A stretch of DNA of 64,000 nucleotides from Algiphilus aromaticivorans DG1253 (GTDB lineage Bacteria; Pseudomonadota; Gammaproteobacteria; Nevskiales; Nevskiaceae). The DNA lies in NCBI RefSeq assembly GCF_000733765.1, contig NZ_JPOG01000001.1, positions 3,544,501 to 3,608,500 of the forward strand, written 5' to 3'. The position numbers and the translations under genes are program-made. Below the pieces are notes generated by a model. That model ran no database searches and was not told the origin of the DNA. It saw nothing but the letters and a program-made list of their open reading frames with translations. This document shows positions 56,700 through 63,964 of this stretch, one piece after another (the stretch's first letter is position 1; every line of letters starts with the position of its first letter).

Positions 56700-58502
56700 T
56701 CAGCCAGCCCGCTTCGGCGCGGTGAAACGGGGCGCCGGTTCGTTACCGGGCCAATCGGCGGCGGCGTCCTCCAGTACCTCGCAGGCATGGCGGTAGCCCG
56801 TCTCTATCGTTTCATCCAGTTTGCTCCAGTCGAACATGCCGACACCGGAGACGGGCATGCGCAGGAAGAGGTCGGCCTGGCTCGCATTCTCCTCCAGCCG
56901 CAGATCGCTGGTCATGCTGGTCATGCGCATGAGGATGTCCGACAGCGCCGGACCCTTGCCGCGGTGCTTGGCTTTCAGTAACGCCTCCGGCTCCGGGCCT
57001 TCGACGCCGGGCAGCGCGAGCTCGCCCGGGGCGCCGACGTCGCAGGCGATGACCGGCCCACGGTCCAGCGCCTGCATGGCGTCCACCGGCACGCTGTTGA
57101 CCACCGCGCCATCGGCGAGCAGTTCGCCGCGATAGACCACCGGCGGTGCGATGCCCGGTACGGCCATGCTGGTGCCGATCCAGGTGGCCAGCTCGCCGTC
57201 GCGGTGCACCTGCGGCTGACCGCGGGTGAGATTGGTGGAGACGCAGTAGAAGGGCAGTGCCAGCTCCTCGATGCGCGTGTCGCCGAAGACCTGCTTGAGC
57301 TTCTTCAGGAACTTGCGGCCTCGGATCAATGAGACGCGCGGCCACACCCAGTCGTTGAGATGATTCTTCGCGACGAAGACTTCATGGCAGCAGTCGCGGA
57401 TGGCCCGCGGATCCATGCCGCGGGCGTGCAGTGCGGCGATGAAGGCGCCCATGCTGGTGCCGCCGACCAGATCGACCGGTAGCCCGGCCTCGGCCAGTGC
57501 GCGCAGCAGGCCGATGTGCGCGAAGCCGCGCGCGCCGCCGCCACCCAGCACCAACCCCACGGCGCGCCCGGCCACCAGCCGCGCCAGCCGATCCATCGCC
57601 GTGGCGTCGCCGGGACGGCAGTGGTGCAGGAAGCTGGCCCGGCTCTGCGCCAGTAGACGCACGGCACGACCATCGGCGCTGCAGTCGATCAGCTCGCGCA
57701 CGGCGGGGCTGGCGGCGGTTTCCAGCGCCTGCAGCGTGTCGGGCAGCAGCTTGCCTTCGCCGGCCACCAGCAGAATCCGGTCGGCCTGGCGCGCCGCGCG
57801 CAGCGTCCAGGGGTCCGGCACGCCGTCGGCGCAGTAGACGAGATGCGCGGAGTCGGTCTCGATCTCATGCAGCCAGCCGACCAGCCGGGCGTTGGCCTCG
57901 CGCGCGTCGAAGCGCGTCTGTGCCGCACCTGCCCCGAGGTCCTGGTCGACGGATCGTCGGTTGAGCAGGGGGACGCTGCCGTCGAGCACGCCGCCCAGCG
58001 CCCCGGCCAGATGGCCGGCGAGGCCTGTGGCGTCGGCGTCCTCGGTGAGCGGCATGACCGCCACTGCGCGCGTGCGGCTGGTGCGCCGGTTGCGGGTCGG
58101 TGCACGTAACCGCTGCACGATGTGTCGCAGCAGTGCGCGCTCGGCCTCGTCGTTGTCGGCCATGACGCGCCGGATGGCCGGCGCGCCGATGCGCAGCAGC
58201 AGGGTGTCGCGCATGGCGACGGCGGTGGCCATGCGCGGCTCGCCGGTGAGCGCGCCGATTTCGCCGACGACGTCACCGGCGGCCACCTCTTGCGGTACGT
58301 CGCCGGCGATCTCGATGCGCAGGCGGCCCAGCGTGACGAGGTAGAGCGCGTCGGCTGGCTCCTCGGCCTCGAAGAGCGTTTCACCGCCACGCAGGCCCAG
58401 CGATTCAGCCTGCGCGGCGAGCTGATCGATGGCAGCGTCCGGCAGTCGTCCCAGCAGTGGCGAGGCGGCGATATGCGGTCGCGGATCGAGCCCGGTAGCC
58501 AC
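56700..58502 (-). CDS. patatin-like phospholipase with cNMP-binding domain (NTE-like)
   Basis: A protein of 600 residues. Residues ~12-130 form a cyclic-nucleotide-binding-like domain (LYLVTLGRLRIEI, GDVVGEIGALTGEPRMATAVAM). The C-terminal patatin domain (~315-520) has the oxyanion loop LGGGGARGFAHIG, the nucleophile GTSMGAF and the catalytic Asp in LADGAVVNS. It is a serine-aspartate lipase or lysophospholipase of the neuropathy-target-esterase type, at the membrane. It lies 35 bp after the acyl-CoA ligase gene, pointing to an operon that releases and activates fatty acids. Confidence 0.92.
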   Translation of the reverse strand: MATGLDPRPHIAASPLLGRLPDAAIDQLAAQAESLGLRGGETLFEAEEPADALYLVTLGRLRIEIAGDVPQEVAAGDVVGEIGALTGEPRMATAVAMRDTLLLRIGAPAIRRVMADNDEAERALLRHIVQRLRAPTRNRRTSRTRAVAVMPLTEDADATGLAGHLAGALGGVLDGSVPLLNRRSVDQDLGAGAAQTRFDAREANARLVGWLHEIETDSAHLVYCADGVPDPWTLRAARQADRILLVAGEGKLLPDTLQALETAASPAVRELIDCSADGRAVRLLAQSRASFLHHCRPGDATAMDRLARLVAGRAVGLVLGGGGARGFAHIGLLRALAEAGLPVDLVGGTSMGAFIAALHARGMDPRAIRDCCHEVFVAKNHLNDWVWPRVSLIRGRKFLKKLKQVFGDTRIEELALPFYCVSTNLTRGQPQVHRDGELATWIGTSMAVPGIAPPVVYRGELLADGAVVNSVPVDAMQALDRGPVIACDVGAPGELALPGVEGPEPEALLKAKHRGKGPALSDILMRMTSMTSDLRLEENASQADLFLRMPVSGVGMFDWSKLDETIETGYRHACEVLEDAAADWPGNEPAPRFTAPKRAG

Positions 58503-58537: not shown

Positions 58538-60169
58538 CTAGGACTTGCCGAGCAGATGCTCGCCGTACTCGTCGCGCAGCTTGTTCTTCTGCACCTTGCC
58601 GGTAGCGCCCAGCGGTAGGCCGTCGACGAAGAGGATGTCGTCCGGCGTCCACCATTTGGCGATCTTGCCCTCGTAGTGCTTGAGCAGATCCTCCTTGGTG
58701 GCGCTCTGGCCTTCCTTGAGCTGCACCAGCAGCAGCGGGCGCTCGTCCCACTTCTCGTGCTTGGCGGCGATGCAGGCGGCCGTTGCCACTGCCGGGTGGC
58801 TCATGGCGATGTTCTCGAGATCGATGGAGCCGATCCATTCACCGCCGGATTTGATGACGTCCTTGGTGCGGTCGGTGATGGTCAGATAACCGTCCGGGTC
58901 GATGTGGCCGACGTCGCCGGTGGGGAACCAGCCGTCGATAAGCGGCGACTCGTCCTTCTTGAAGTACTGCTTGATGATCCAGGGGCCGCGCACGTGCAGG
59001 TCGCCGGTCGACTTGCCATCCTGGGGCTGGCGCTTGCCGTTCTCGTCGACGATTTTCATCTCGACACCGAAGACGGCGCGTCCCTGCTTGATGCGCACCT
59101 GGAATTGCTCGTCCTCGGACAGCTTCTGGTGCTTGGCCTTGAGATGGTTGTAGGTGCCCAGCGGTGACATCTCGGTCATGCCCCAGGCGTGTTCCAGCCG
59201 GACGCCGAACTCCTTCTCGAAGGTTTCCATCAGCGCCGGCGGGCAGGCCGAGCCGCCGACGGTCATGCGCTTGAGCGTCGACAGCTGGAGCTTGTTCTTC
59301 TGCAGATGCTGCAGCACCAGCTGCCAGACCGTGGGCACACCGGCGCTGATGGTCACGCCTTCGGATTCGAAGAGCTCGTAGAGGCTCTCGCCGTCGAGCT
59401 TGGGGCCGGGGAATACCAGCTTGACCCCGCCCAGCGCGCCGACGTAGGGCAGGCTCCAGGCGTTGACGTGGAACATCGGTACCACGGGCAGCACGACGTC
59501 CATGGCGGTAACGCCGAAAGCATCGGGCAGGCAGGCGCCGTAGGTGTGCAGCACCAGCGAGCGATGCGAGTAGAGAATGCCCTTGGGATTGCCGGTGGTG
59601 CCCGAGGTGTAGCAGAGGCAGGCCGCGGTGTTCTCGTCCAGCACCGGCCACTCGTACTCGGTGGGCTGGCCGGCCATGAAGTCCTCATAGCTCGTCGCGC
59701 TGACGTTCTTCAGCTCCGGCATCTTGTCCGGATCGGACATCGCTACCCAGTGCTGCACGGTCGGGCACTTGTCGGCGATGGCGTCGACGATGGGCGCGAA
59801 GGTGGCGTCGAAGAAGAGGATGCGATCCTCGGCGTGATTGACGATCCAGGCCACCTGCTCCGGGTGCAGGCGCGGATTGATGGTGTGCATCACCGAGCCG
59901 ATGCCGGAGATCGCGTAGTAGAGCTCGAAGTGCCGATAGCCGTTCCAGGCCAGCGTCGCGGCGCGTTCGCCCGGCTTGAGGCCGGCGGCCGTCAGGGCAT
60001 TCGCCATCTGACGCGCCCGCGCCGCTGCTTCACCGTAGGTGTAGCGGTGGATATCGCCCTCCACGCGGCGCGAGACGATGTCGGTGTCGGCGTGGTTGTA
60101 GTCGGCGTGCGTCAGCAGGCTGGACACCAGCAGGGGGGTGTCCATCATCAGGCCTTGCAGCGTGCTCAT
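58538..60169 (-). CDS. medium/long-chain fatty-acid--CoA ligase (AlkK/FadD-like)
   Basis: A protein of 543 residues of the acyl-adenylate family. The P-loop is [19 protein letters not shown], the motif [11 protein letters not shown] follows, then [22 protein letters not shown], and the C-terminal lysine in [16 protein letters not shown]. It forms acyl-AMP and then acyl-CoA. The opening [19 protein letters not shown] and size resemble AlkK-type medium-chain ligases. Confidence 0.92.
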
Positions 60170-60289: not shown

Positions 60290-61180
60290 CTACTGAATGA
60301 GGAAGCGGAGCTGCTGCGCTTCCAGAAAGGCTCTGGCGTGATCCCCTTCGAGCATGGCCAGCGTGGCGAGCATGCCCGCCAGGGTGCAACTCGATGCGGC
60401 AACGGTCACGGCGCGCGGCGCCCCGGGCGTCGGCCAACCGGTCGTGGCATCGAGCACATGCCCGTATCGCTTGCCATCGCGCAAAAGATAGCGCTCGGCG
60501 TCGCCGCTGGTCGCCACCCCTCCTTGGCGCAGCGCGATCCGCTCGGTGGCGCCCTCGGGCTCGACCGGGCTGATCCCGATCTGCCAGGCGCTGCCATCGA
60601 TGCGTGGCCCGTCGCTGGCGAGGTCGCCCCCGAAGTTCAGCAGTAGCGGCTGGTCGCACTGCGCGCGGGCCAGGCGCAGCGCACGATCCACCGCGTACTC
60701 CTTGCCTATGCCACCGAAGTCGATCTCCATGCCCGCCGGCATGCAGAGCCGAGGACGGTTCCAGTCCACGCGCTGCCAACCGATGGCGGGCATTAGCTCA
60801 GCGACGTCGCGCGTTTCCGGAAGGCGATCCGAGCCATCGAAACGCCAGGCGCGACGGAGCACGCCCGCGGTGATGTCGAAGCGCCCTGCCGACAGTCGCC
60901 AGAGCTCGGCGGCGTAATCCAGCATATCCGCGGTTTCGTCGTCTACGCGCACGTCCTTGCTCTGGGCGCGGTTGATGCGCTGAACGATGCTGTCCTCGCG
61001 ATAGCGACTCCACTTGCGCTCCACGCGCCAGGCCTCGGCCGCAACGCGCTGCGTCGTCCGCAGGGCCCTGCGCTGCGAACCGCCCTCGATGAGCACCTCG
61101 CCGGGGCTGGCCATGGCTCGGAAGCTGCCGCGCCAGAGTCCCGGAGCGGCTTCGTCGACCGCGACGCCTGCCGCCTGCAT
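60290..61180 (-). CDS. ApbE-like FAD:protein FMN transferase
   Basis: A protein of 296 residues that is ApbE by pattern: RFDITAGVLRRAW, MEIDFGGIGKEYAVDRALRLA, LLLNFGGDLASDG, GVATSGDAERYLLRDGKRYGHVLDATTG. ApbE attaches FMN to a Thr or Ser of a partner protein. Two points are odd. There is no signal peptide, although many ApbE proteins act outside the cytoplasm. The metal-binding Asp in the C-terminal A-D-x-x-x-T segment is Gly269 (CTLAGMLAT). The start is the ATG at 61180, immediately after the DUF3570 stop. It is last in the TlpA-DUF4266-DUF3570-ApbE operon. Confidence 0.87.
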   Translation of the reverse strand: MQAAGVAVDEAAPGLWRGSFRAMASPGEVLIEGGSQRRALRTTQRVAAEAWRVERKWSRYREDSIVQRINRAQSKDVRVDDETADMLDYAAELWRLSAGRFDITAGVLRRAWRFDGSDRLPETRDVAELMPAIGWQRVDWNRPRLCMPAGMEIDFGGIGKEYAVDRALRLARAQCDQPLLLNFGGDLASDGPRIDGSAWQIGISPVEPEGATERIALRQGGVATSGDAERYLLRDGKRYGHVLDATTGWPTPGAPRAVTVAASSCTLAGMLATLAMLEGDHARAFLEAQQLRFLIQ

Positions 61181-61182
61181 CA

Positions 61183-62568
61183 CTACCAGCCGAAATCGAA
61201 GTTGACGCGCACCATGAATGCGTCCATGTCCGGGAAGATCTCGCGGCCGCGCAGCTGTCCCGGCGCATTGTCCGGATCTTCGCCATCCTGGCTGTAGTGT
61301 TCCAGAGCGATGCGGATACTGCGGCCGCTGCTAGTCCGGTGGTCGTATTCGAGGCCAACGGTGATGCCTTCGAAGCTGGCCTGCCGATAGTCGGCGGTGA
61401 AATGCGTCGGTGGTGCCGCGTCATCGCGCAGGAAAGGCGCATAGAAGTCGACTGCCGACTGGCTGTACCAGCGCAGGTGGGGCGTGAAGGCGTGCCGCGT
61501 CCAAGGCGCCCATCGATAGCGGAGATCCACGGTGTGCGAGGTCAACCCCCAGTCGTCGGTCTGGAATCGGTAGCTGGCATCGGCGACGTCCCGGTCGAAG
61601 AGCATGTGCTTGACGCGGGCAAAGATGCCGCGCTTGCTGCGGCTCTGCGGTCGCGATTCGTGCAGGTGGCGTTCCGGTTCACCGATGCCGTTGCCCGCGC
61701 TGTCGTCGGTATCGATCACGCTGACCAGCTTGAAGGGGTCGTTGTGGTAGCCGTCCGAGCGGCTGAGCGAGAGATTCAACTGAGCGACTGTGCTCGGGCT
61801 CAGCACCTGGGTATAGCCGAGCAGCAGGTCGAGGGTGTCCTTGCTCTCGCTGCTCGTGCGTCGGGTCTCGTCGAAGCCGGATTCCGTACAGCCGTTGCTG
61901 GCGCTCGCACCGAAGAGGCAGCTGCCTTCCAGCGGCACGCCGCCTTCGGGCTCGATGCTGTCCGTGGCGTAGGCCATTCCGATCGACAGCGTGGCGTTGT
62001 TGCGGGCGAGGTCGTAGCTCAGGCCGCCGTCGATCGCCAGCGACTGGTAGTCGTATTCCTGCGAAGCGGCGAAGCCGAGATTGCCCGCCAGGCTGCTACC
62101 GAGCGGCTGCTGCCACTGGCTGCTCAGCGCCACGCGGGTATCGCGGAAGGTGTCGTCCAGCGGAATCTCGCCGCTGCCGACGGTGTAGCTGCCGTTGCCG
62201 GATGCACGGGTGTAGGTCTGCGGCAGGGAGGATGGCACCGCGCCGTTGGGGGAGGCGCCCGTCAGTGAATCAAAAACTAGTTTCCCGCTCAGGAAGCGGT
62301 CGGTGTCGAAGTAGCGCCGGACGGCGATCACCGGCTCAATGGCTTGCACGCGATCGGTTTCGCTGTAGAAGAGCACGGCGGAATCAATTTCCCAGTCGCC
62401 GGGCTGGGCAGCCTGCAACATCCCCGGTAGGCCGAGGACGAGGGCGCCGGCCGACAGGCGCGCATCCTTCCGCCTGCGGGGCGCCGGAGCGGCGCCGAGG
62501 AGTCGCTCCGTGGCCGCACTCAGAGGGGCGACGATGGCGGTCCGGGTCATGGCGCGATCTAGTTGCAT
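61183..62568 (-). CDS. DUF3570 family protein, probable outer-membrane beta-barrel and flavinylation target
   Basis: A protein of 461 residues. The N-terminus is long and basic with one hydrophobic segment (SAGALVLGLPGMLQAAQ) likely to be a signal sequence. The rest alternates short beta strands and ends in a Phe-x-Phe-x-Trp (VRVNFDFGW), a classic outer-membrane C-terminal signal. At residues 100-106 it reads D-S-L-T-G-A-S, matching the ApbE acceptor pattern D-x-x-[ST]-G-A-[ST], so Thr103 could carry FMN. It overlaps the DUF4266 gene by 10 bp. Confidence 0.85.
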   Translation of the reverse strand: MQLDRAMTRTAIVAPLSAATERLLGAAPAPRRRKDARLSAGALVLGLPGMLQAAQPGDWEIDSAVLFYSETDRVQAIEPVIAVRRYFDTDRFLSGKLVFDSLTGASPNGAVPSSLPQTYTRASGNGSYTVGSGEIPLDDTFRDTRVALSSQWQQPLGSSLAGNLGFAASQEYDYQSLAIDGGLSYDLARNNATLSIGMAYATDSIEPEGGVPLEGSCLFGASASNGCTESGFDETRRTSSESKDTLDLLLGYTQVLSPSTVAQLNLSLSRSDGYHNDPFKLVSVIDTDDSAGNGIGEPERHLHESRPQSRSKRGIFARVKHMLFDRDVADASYRFQTDDWGLTSHTVDLRYRWAPWTRHAFTPHLRWYSQSAVDFYAPFLRDDAAPPTHFTADYRQASFEGITVGLEYDHRTSSGRSIRIALEHYSQDGEDPDNAPGQLRGREIFPDMDAFMVRVNFDFGW

Positions 62569-62786
62569 CCGCAGCCCCCACCGCCGAAACCGCGGCCGCC
62601 GCTGGCGGATTCCTTGGAGAAGTAGATGTGCTCGTCCAGCGCCGTGGTCACGGCGTCGGCATCCAGCGCCATCTCCGGGCGTGCGAGCTGGTCGCGCTCC
62701 CAGGGCGCCACGTTCGCGCAGCCATGGAGCGCCATTGCGGCGAGCAAGACGGCAAGAGAAGCTAAGGGCGTCGCGAAACTATTCAT
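62559..62786 (-). CDS. DUF4266 small lipoprotein with Cys-Gly-Cys tail
   Basis: A protein of 75 residues. Lipobox LHGC gives Cys23 as the lipidated residue. DUF4266 follows: VAPWERDQLARPEMAL, HIYFSKESASGG, then a glycine-rich tail ending GGGCGCN (Cys72, Cys74). The Cys pair at the extreme C-terminus may be a redox or metal site. It is between the TlpA-like and DUF3570 genes, overlapping both by 8-10 bp, so expression must be coupled. Confidence 0.87.
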   Translation of the reverse strand: MNSFATPLASLAVLLAAMALHGCANVAPWERDQLARPEMALDADAVTTALDEHIYFSKESASGGRGFGGGGCGCN

Positions 62787-63339
62787 TGGGGGCGGCCTCC
62801 GGCCGGGAACCTGGGCCCGCGCGCTGCGCGAGGGCCTCGGCGATGCGTGCCTCCAGGGCGTCGGCATCCGCTGCGCGGAAGCCTTCGTGGCGCAGAAGAA
62901 TCTCGCCCCCGGGTGTCAGCAGGAAGCTGCTGGGCATCGCGGCGATGTCGTAGGTGGCGGCGAGCTGGCCTTCAGGATCACGCACGATGTCGAAATCGGG
63001 GCGGGCCTGATTGAGGAAGCGCTCCGCCGCGACCGGGTCCCGGTCGACGTTGATCGCGATCACGCGCAATCCCCGCGAGCCGTATCGCTCGCTCAGCTGT
63101 TTCATCCAGGGGAAGCTGACCCGGCAGGGCGGGCACCAGGACGCCCAGAAATCGAGATAGATCAGCTCCGCGTCGACAGTTTTCAGCCGAAAATCGTCCA
63201 CGCCGATGACCTCGGCGCGCCCAGGGACCGCTGCGGCGATGGTAAGCAGTAGTCCGAGGGCGGCTAGCCGCAAGGTGGAGCGGTTGAGGAACGCGGTGGG
63301 CGCAGTGCGCGGCCGTCGGGGCGCGTCGAGAAGAGGCAT
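62779..63339 (-). CDS. TlpA-like thioredoxin-fold protein
   Basis: A protein of 186 residues with an N-terminal signal or anchor (LRLAALGLLLTIAAAV) and a thioredoxin domain with active-site W-C-P-P-C (Cys69, Cys72) in YLDFWASWCPPCRVSFPWM. The cis-proline region is IAAMPSSFLL. It probably acts as a periplasmic disulfide reductant, perhaps keeping the DUF4266 Cys-Gly-Cys tail reduced. It is the first gene of the four-gene operon and diverges from a membrane-bound LuxR-type regulator. Confidence 0.9.
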   Translation of the reverse strand: MPLLDAPRRPRTAPTAFLNRSTLRLAALGLLLTIAAAVPGRAEVIGVDDFRLKTVDAELIYLDFWASWCPPCRVSFPWMKQLSERYGSRGLRVIAINVDRDPVAAERFLNQARPDFDIVRDPEGQLAATYDIAAMPSSFLLTPGGEILLRHEGFRAADADALEARIAEALAQRAGPGSRPEAAPNE

Positions 63340-63430: not shown

Positions 63431-63964
63431 ATGCCCGTTTCCCATCTCCGCCTGCCACTCATGCTTCGAAACACACGCGACTATCTGCTGCTCGGGCTGG
63501 CCGGGCTGGTCGTTTCGCTGACCGCTCTTGATGTATGGAGTGACCTTCGCGAGGGAACGCCTGTCCATCACATCTTTCACGAGGCGCTGCTCGTGGGCAC
63601 GGCTTTGGCTCTGCTGGGATGGGTGCTGAGCGATCTCGTCCGGCGGCGTCGCGAGGTCGCGAGGCTTCGCTATGAACTGGATGCCGTGCAAGAAGTCGCG
63701 CGGTTGCGTAATCCGGAGCTGCGCAAGGCGCGCGCGGAGCTCAGCGATGCCATCGACGCGCAGTTCTCGGACTGGCAACTCAGCCCCAGTGAGCGGGAGG
63801 TGGGGCGCCTATTGCTCAAGGGGCTCAGCATCAAGGAAATCGCCTCGCTGCGCGAGACGCACGAGAAGACGGTGCGCCAGCATGCGAGCGCGATCTATCG
63901 CAAGGCGGAGCTGCCCGGTCGCCATGCCTTTGCGGCTTGGTTTCTGGAGGATCTCTTGGGCTGA
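63431..63964 (+). CDS. membrane-anchored LuxR-type HTH regulator
   Basis: A protein of 177 residues (or 167 from the ATG at 63461). Two membrane helices lie at about residues 18-35 and 47-68, followed by a short coiled coil. The C-terminal LuxR helix-turn-helix is at ~115-175 (LSPSEREVGRLLLKGLSIKEIASLRETHEKTVRQHASAIYRKAEL). There is no receiver or autoinducer domain, so it would bind DNA from the inner membrane. It is divergent from the TlpA-DUF4266-DUF3570-ApbE operon and is its most likely regulator. Confidence 0.85.
   Translation: MPVSHLRLPLMLRNTRDYLLLGLAGLVVSLTALDVWSDLREGTPVHHIFHEALLVGTALALLGWVLSDLVRRRREVARLRYELDAVQEVARLRNPELRKARAELSDAIDAQFSDWQLSPSEREVGRLLLKGLSIKEIASLRETHEKTVRQHASAIYRKAELPGRHAFAAWFLEDLLG

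Follow-up and report, generated by a model that had tools for sequence, protein, structure and literature searches.

A DUF3570 operon of Algiphilus aromaticivorans with a predicted flavin-carrying envelope protein and an ApbE without a signal peptide

Gene layout and the DUF3570 motif

A stretch of 64,000 nucleotides (nt) from Algiphilus aromaticivorans DG1253 (contig NZ_JPOG01000001.1, positions 3,544,501 to 3,608,500), referred to here as the window, was analyzed, and coordinates are positions within it. Its minus strand carries at 60290-63339 an operon of four genes with overlapping ends, read from the open reading frame (ORF) list and the sequence, which encode TlpA, DUF4266, DUF3570 and ApbE (Table 1). 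A preliminary description of the locus had assigned four overlapping or abutting genes to these families, and this was confirmed by the ORFs and by Pfam matches to ApbE, DUF3570, DUF4266 and, in the case of TlpA, Redoxin/AhpC-TSA/thioredoxin. The start of DUF3570 overlaps the end of the DUF4266 gene, and the GTG start of ApbE overlaps the DUF3570 stop, with an ATG 3 bases further on. TlpA has a hydrophobic signal segment and the active site W-C69-P-P-C72 (codons 63135-63124). DUF4266 has a lipobox-like LHGC22 and a Gly-rich C-terminus ending in C72-G-C74-N (codons 62573-62562), and CGC-[NYE] closes 88 of 89 homologues. It had been described as a 75-residue lipoprotein ending in C-G-C; the length and the lipobox-like sequence stand, and the end is C-G-C-N. 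A promoter and terminator scan yielded nothing usable for the operon.

Table 1. Features of the DUF3570 operon, in window coordinates.
Feature	Position	Strand	Basis
TlpA/ResA-like thioredoxin, 186 aa	62779..63339	-	ORF; Redoxin E 2.7e-15, AhpC-TSA E 4.9e-14
DUF4266 small lipoprotein, 75 aa	62559..62786	-	PF14086 E 9.8e-24
DUF3570, 461 aa, predicted flavin-carrying outer-membrane-type protein	61183..62568	-	PF12094 E 6.3e-121
Flavinylation motif D100-S-L-T-G-A-S106	62251..62271	-	Sequence; alignment with relatives
ApbE, signal-less clade, 297 aa	60290..61183	-	PF02424 E 5.5e-63; tree and residues
ApbE Glu162 (GGIGK-E-YAVD; Gly in ordinary ApbEs, GGIAK-G-YAVD)	60698..60700	-	Alignment of 118 ApbEs
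ApbE Gly270, in place of the metal/triad Asp	60374..60376	-	Alignments

The operon is a member of the DUF3570 flavinylation system already described by Méheust et al. 2021 (PMC8238504), because that study demonstrated DUF3570 flavinylation and reported the same gene clusters. In the window, DUF3570 lies beside apbE and contains an [ST]GA[ST] motif, and a thioredoxin-like protein and a DUF4266 protein with its CXC are encoded with them. The published assays showed that C. luteolum DUF3570 was flavinylated by its cognate ApbE when the two were co-expressed in E. coli as proteins without signal peptides, and that Ser to Ala changes at both [ST]GA[ST] sites were needed to abolish flavinylation (PMC8238504). 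The proposal that ApbE flavinylates DUF3570 is strongly supported by this homologue assay and by motif conservation; it is not new, having been shown by Méheust et al. 2021.

The motif D100-S-L-T-G-A-S106 stands in DUF3570 exactly as first reported and fits D-x-x-[ST]-G-A-[ST], a pattern that arises in 0.86% of shuffles of the window protein. G104 does not vary among 22 diverse DUF3570s and S106 is conserved at 90% or more, and the motif is therefore beyond chance. Nearly all window-type DUF3570s beside apbE in the host class carry [DE]-x-x-[ST]-G-[AS]-[ST] at the motif position, so the conservation that had been proposed as a check is observed. ApbE places FMN (flavin mononucleotide) on the Ser/Thr that closes the motif (PMC12052999; PMC8238504). 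This published rule rules out Thr103, previously named as the acceptor, and Ser106 is the predicted FMN acceptor of the window protein.

A second motif occurs in some DUF3570 subtypes and is degenerate in the window type. A separate subtype carries DSISSAS...TSAS and is sometimes found beside a signal-bearing ApbE. One locus of genome G302 (L176) encodes TlpA, DUF4266, DUF3570 and ApbE in the same order as the window. We take G302, which is not labeled as such, to be C. luteolum DSM 273. The order of apbE and DUF3570 there fits the consecutive accessions of the published work (ABB24423, ABB24424), and both motifs end in Ser, as in that paper (PMC8238504). Ser122 of the L176 DUF3570 aligns with window Ser106, and its Ser78 is in a segment that the window protein does not have. 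The single window motif thus matches one of the two sites in the presumed C. luteolum protein.

Of 274 genomes sampled from the host class, 71 have a DUF3570 match, as do 67 of 86 from the Chlorobium family. No DUF3570 relatives were found in viral contigs by alignment search, and DUF4266 was not found in plasmids. A second full operon is present in the same genome (L002, G000:C1:3196341-3200411, about 3.197-3.200 Mb), with the order TetR-TlpA-DUF4266-DUF3570-ApbE and TetR upstream; the motif of its DUF3570 is ETLSGAS. In the window protein, DUF3570 residues 33-51 (62416-62472) form an N-terminal stretch, PRRRKDARLSAGALVLGLP, that is absent from most relatives and resembles a new signal segment following an older, broken one.

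An ApbE clade without a signal peptide

The window ApbE was compared in an alignment of 118 distinct ApbEs, comprising those near DUF3570 in the host class and the Chlorobium family together with controls taken from the class irrespective of DUF3570. Glu follows the conserved Lys (GGxGK-E-Y) in 52 of the 118, at a position that is Gly ('AKGY') in ordinary ApbEs. Gly replaces Asp (AGxxxT vs ADxxxT) in 51 of these 52 Glu-type ApbEs, the remaining one ending before the site. Gly and Asp occur together in 61, and 5 show neither pattern. Signal segments were scored with a hydrophobicity rule, not SignalP, as a mean Kyte-Doolittle value >1.9 in an 11-residue stretch ahead of the domain in the longest ORF. 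By this proxy the window ApbE lacks a hydrophobic N-terminal segment, as do all Glu-type ApbEs (0/52; the nearest, in an over-long ORF, reached 1.85), compared to 60/61 Asp-type ApbEs with such a segment. DUF3570 is adjacent within the fetched stretch for 46/52 of the Glu type and 4/61 of the Asp type. In a FastTree phylogeny built without the two diagnostic columns, the 52 separate exactly as one clade with a support of 1.0; its members were drawn from a single class and a single family. Because the 52 form one clade and relatedness is ignored, Fisher values for these associations are descriptive only.

The altered Asp is a known functional residue. D280 of E. coli ApbE is a ligand of metal site 1 (PMC4767422), and D301 of FmnB and D285 of the V. 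cholerae enzyme are part of a proposed triad (PMC12052999). Gly270 of the window ApbE holds the position of E. coli D280 and, by its spacing of 28 residues from the catalytic His, that of V. cholerae D285 and L. monocytogenes FmnB D301. Catalytic S226 and H242 lie in conserved columns and the metal-site Thr is kept; across the clade, every ApbE long enough to reach these two columns retains the Ser and the His. The preliminary description was right to place this protein in the transferase family (PF02424, with Ser and His kept), and it overlooked the missing signal peptide and the missing metal/triad Asp. These features of the ApbE are not remarked on in the available part of the text of Méheust et al. 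2021.

Independently of how G302 is identified, Chlorobium ferrooxidans (L155) has the same pair, a DUF3570 with two motifs and an ApbE of the signal-less clade. Genome G034 also encodes a clade ApbE (L250, 1815-2864); there is no DUF3570 among the matches listed for this genome, and some motifs of the ApbE look degenerate (FGSD, SSGLAPRH).

The L176 ApbE also falls within the Gly/Glu clade by sequence; if G302 is C. luteolum, a clade ApbE is then the one shown to be active. The activity of this presumed C. luteolum enzyme argues that the metal/triad Asp may not be indispensable; as a guess, Glu162 might take over its role. We suggest, as a tentative reading in which belief and doubt are nearly balanced, that DUF3570 operons have their own cytosolic clade of ApbEs, in which the metal site is remodeled (Gly for Asp and, at a second conserved position, Glu for Gly) and which flavinylates an outer-membrane-type protein before Sec export. 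FMN would then be carried covalently across the inner membrane to the outer membrane, and periplasmic flavin adenine dinucleotide (FAD) would not be needed.

Proposed redox module and alternative explanations

We consider it likely that the operon encodes a DUF3570-type flavinylated envelope redox module, with FMN added before export, a barrel, and a relay from DsbD through TlpA and DUF4266 to FMN. The operon ApbE, lacking an export signal, would move FMN from cytosolic FAD to DUF3570 Ser106, and the signal peptide of DUF3570 would then export the protein to the envelope. An ApbE without a signal peptide would draw on cytosolic FAD, so that DUF3570 probably receives its FMN in the cytosol and is exported afterwards. 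DUF3570 would probably form a beta-barrel in the outer membrane, its FMN site lying in a loop or where an early strand ends. Electrons would pass from DsbD to the CxxC of periplasmic TlpA, on to the C-G-C at the DUF4266 C-terminus and then to the DUF3570 FMN, which would hand them to an acceptor such as ferric iron. We infer the barrel topology, the cytosolic timing, the electron route and direction and the final acceptor. A hybrid thioredoxin/flavin system fed with electrons by DsbD was proposed by Méheust et al. 2021 (PMC8238504); flow via TlpA and the DUF4266 CXC would follow this published hypothesis, in the direction of the published model.

That DUF3570 is an outer-membrane beta-barrel had been proposed along with its outer-membrane-type C-terminus. 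The C-terminus was confirmed, as the window protein ends in NFDFGW. The barrel gains indirect support from this aromatic end, from weak porin matches, from weak strand alternation and from the pellet recovery of DUF3570 in the published purification (PMC8238504), and is not established. The last residue is F, W or Y in 78/107 DUF3570s compared to 5/126 ApbEs, which counts toward a barrel because an aromatic last residue is typical of outer-membrane proteins. Two porin-family matches were obtained, both weak and each in a single DUF3570 member. The Ser106 motif closes an early segment of strand-like character and is followed by a long loop. The published modification occurred without signal peptides, and most C. 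luteolum DUF3570 was recovered in the pellet (PMC8238504); a folded barrel is seemingly not needed for flavinylation. Strand-peak counting was dropped as barrel evidence, with 24 peaks vs 24.3 in shuffles and no excess. The sole structure match of the DUF3570 profile, Elicitor Hrip2 (E 0.018), was treated as chance.

Several observations weigh against the proposed module. In this organism it is predicted from sequence, and its ApbE lacks, at Gly270, the metal/triad Asp used by characterised ApbEs. DsbD is absent from the operon and from the neighboring genes examined; the DsbD present elsewhere in the same genome counts in favor of the module. A few DUF3570s beside a window-type ApbE carry TGSS, SGSS or IGAS instead of [ST]GA[ST]. 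The hydrophobic strand alternation of DUF3570 is only weak, searches of solved structures found no convincing relative, and single-sequence AlphaFold models of mature DUF3570 and ApbE were unusable (predicted local distance difference test, pLDDT, 28 and 35). With no convincing solved relative and models of such low pLDDT, the barrel and the position of FMN are not established.

Three alternatives were considered. A narrower form of the same module would make it an iron-assimilation reductase, in which DUF3570-FMN reduces surface or periplasmic Fe(III). This is possible but somewhat doubtful; the immediate neighbors, encoding an acyl-CoA synthetase, a patatin-like protein and a LuxR-type regulator, include no iron transporter.

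Alternatively, a different ApbE could flavinylate DUF3570 in the periplasm after export, the operon ApbE being inactive or otherwise employed. The third ApbE of the genome (L252) is of the ordinary KG/Asp type with an N-terminal hydrophobic membrane signal segment and could serve this role; signal-bearing Asp-type ApbEs adjoin some other DUF3570s (L056, L061, L063, L068), and the loss of the metal/triad Asp from the operon ApbE would fit. However, the clade ApbEs keep their catalytic Ser and His columns and, in the great majority, their DUF3570 neighbor, and the same clade includes the presumed C. luteolum ApbE, which was active in the published assay. We therefore regard periplasmic flavinylation as unlikely. 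Reverse flow, in which flavinylated DUF3570 oxidizes periplasmic thiols to form disulfides rather than exporting electrons, is similarly improbable: the TlpA-like CxxC and the DUF4266 CXC are usable in either direction and flow is reversible in principle (PMC8238504), but ResA/TlpA-type thioredoxins and the published association with DsbD indicate a reducing pathway.

Directly downstream of the operon lies an AMP-binding acyl-CoA synthetase-like gene (58538-60169, minus strand), followed by a patatin-like phospholipase with a cyclic-nucleotide-binding domain, of the neuropathy target esterase type (56700-58502, minus strand). Upstream, a divergent LuxR-type regulator (63461-63964, plus strand) has two hydrophobic N-terminal segments; no relative of it was seen beside DUF3570 in the other fetched loci, whose flanks are short.

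The preliminary reading is correct in outline, with the acceptor residue corrected, and it is the ApbE clade that deserves further study. DUF3570 flavinylation was already established; less expected is an ApbE that is seemingly cytosolic and lacks the usual metal-binding residue. If true, passage of a covalent flavin through the export machinery on an unfolded outer-membrane protein would be new, as would a flavinylating ApbE working without the metal-binding Asp of its characterised relatives. Both would change the view of where protein flavinylation occurs and of which ApbE residues are required.

Comparison with known flavinylation systems

A literature search found no paper besides Méheust et al. 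2021 that names DUF3570 or DUF4266. The outer membrane was named in 2024 as one site of flavinylation substrates (PMC11334425), and the accessible part of that article does not discuss DUF3570. Published clusters of ApbE, DUF3570, thioredoxin-like proteins and DUF4266, the last with its CXC conserved at the C-terminus, include 285 with DsbD, 227 of these with DUF3570, and 316 without DsbD (PMC8238504). The window operon differs from the DsbD-type clusters in having no DsbD gene of its own, the DsbD of the genome being encoded elsewhere.

The closest likeness is to the C. luteolum system, as represented by the presumed C. luteolum genome G302. The four genes, their order and the ApbE clade are shared, and acceptor Ser122 corresponds to window Ser106; however, DUF3570 carries two motifs there and one in the window. 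With the canonical periplasmic ApbE/Ftp enzymes of E. coli, V. cholerae and T. maritima and with FmnB, the window ApbE shares the PF02424 domain, the catalytic Ser/His and the metal-site Thr. It differs from them in lacking a signal peptide, in having Gly for the metal/triad Asp and in having Glu for the Gly after the conserved Lys. The cytosolic ApbE of Klebsiella pneumoniae, compared only by its description, likewise has no signal peptide, but its substrate is a soluble fumarate reductase and not an exported outer-membrane-type protein (PMC12052999).
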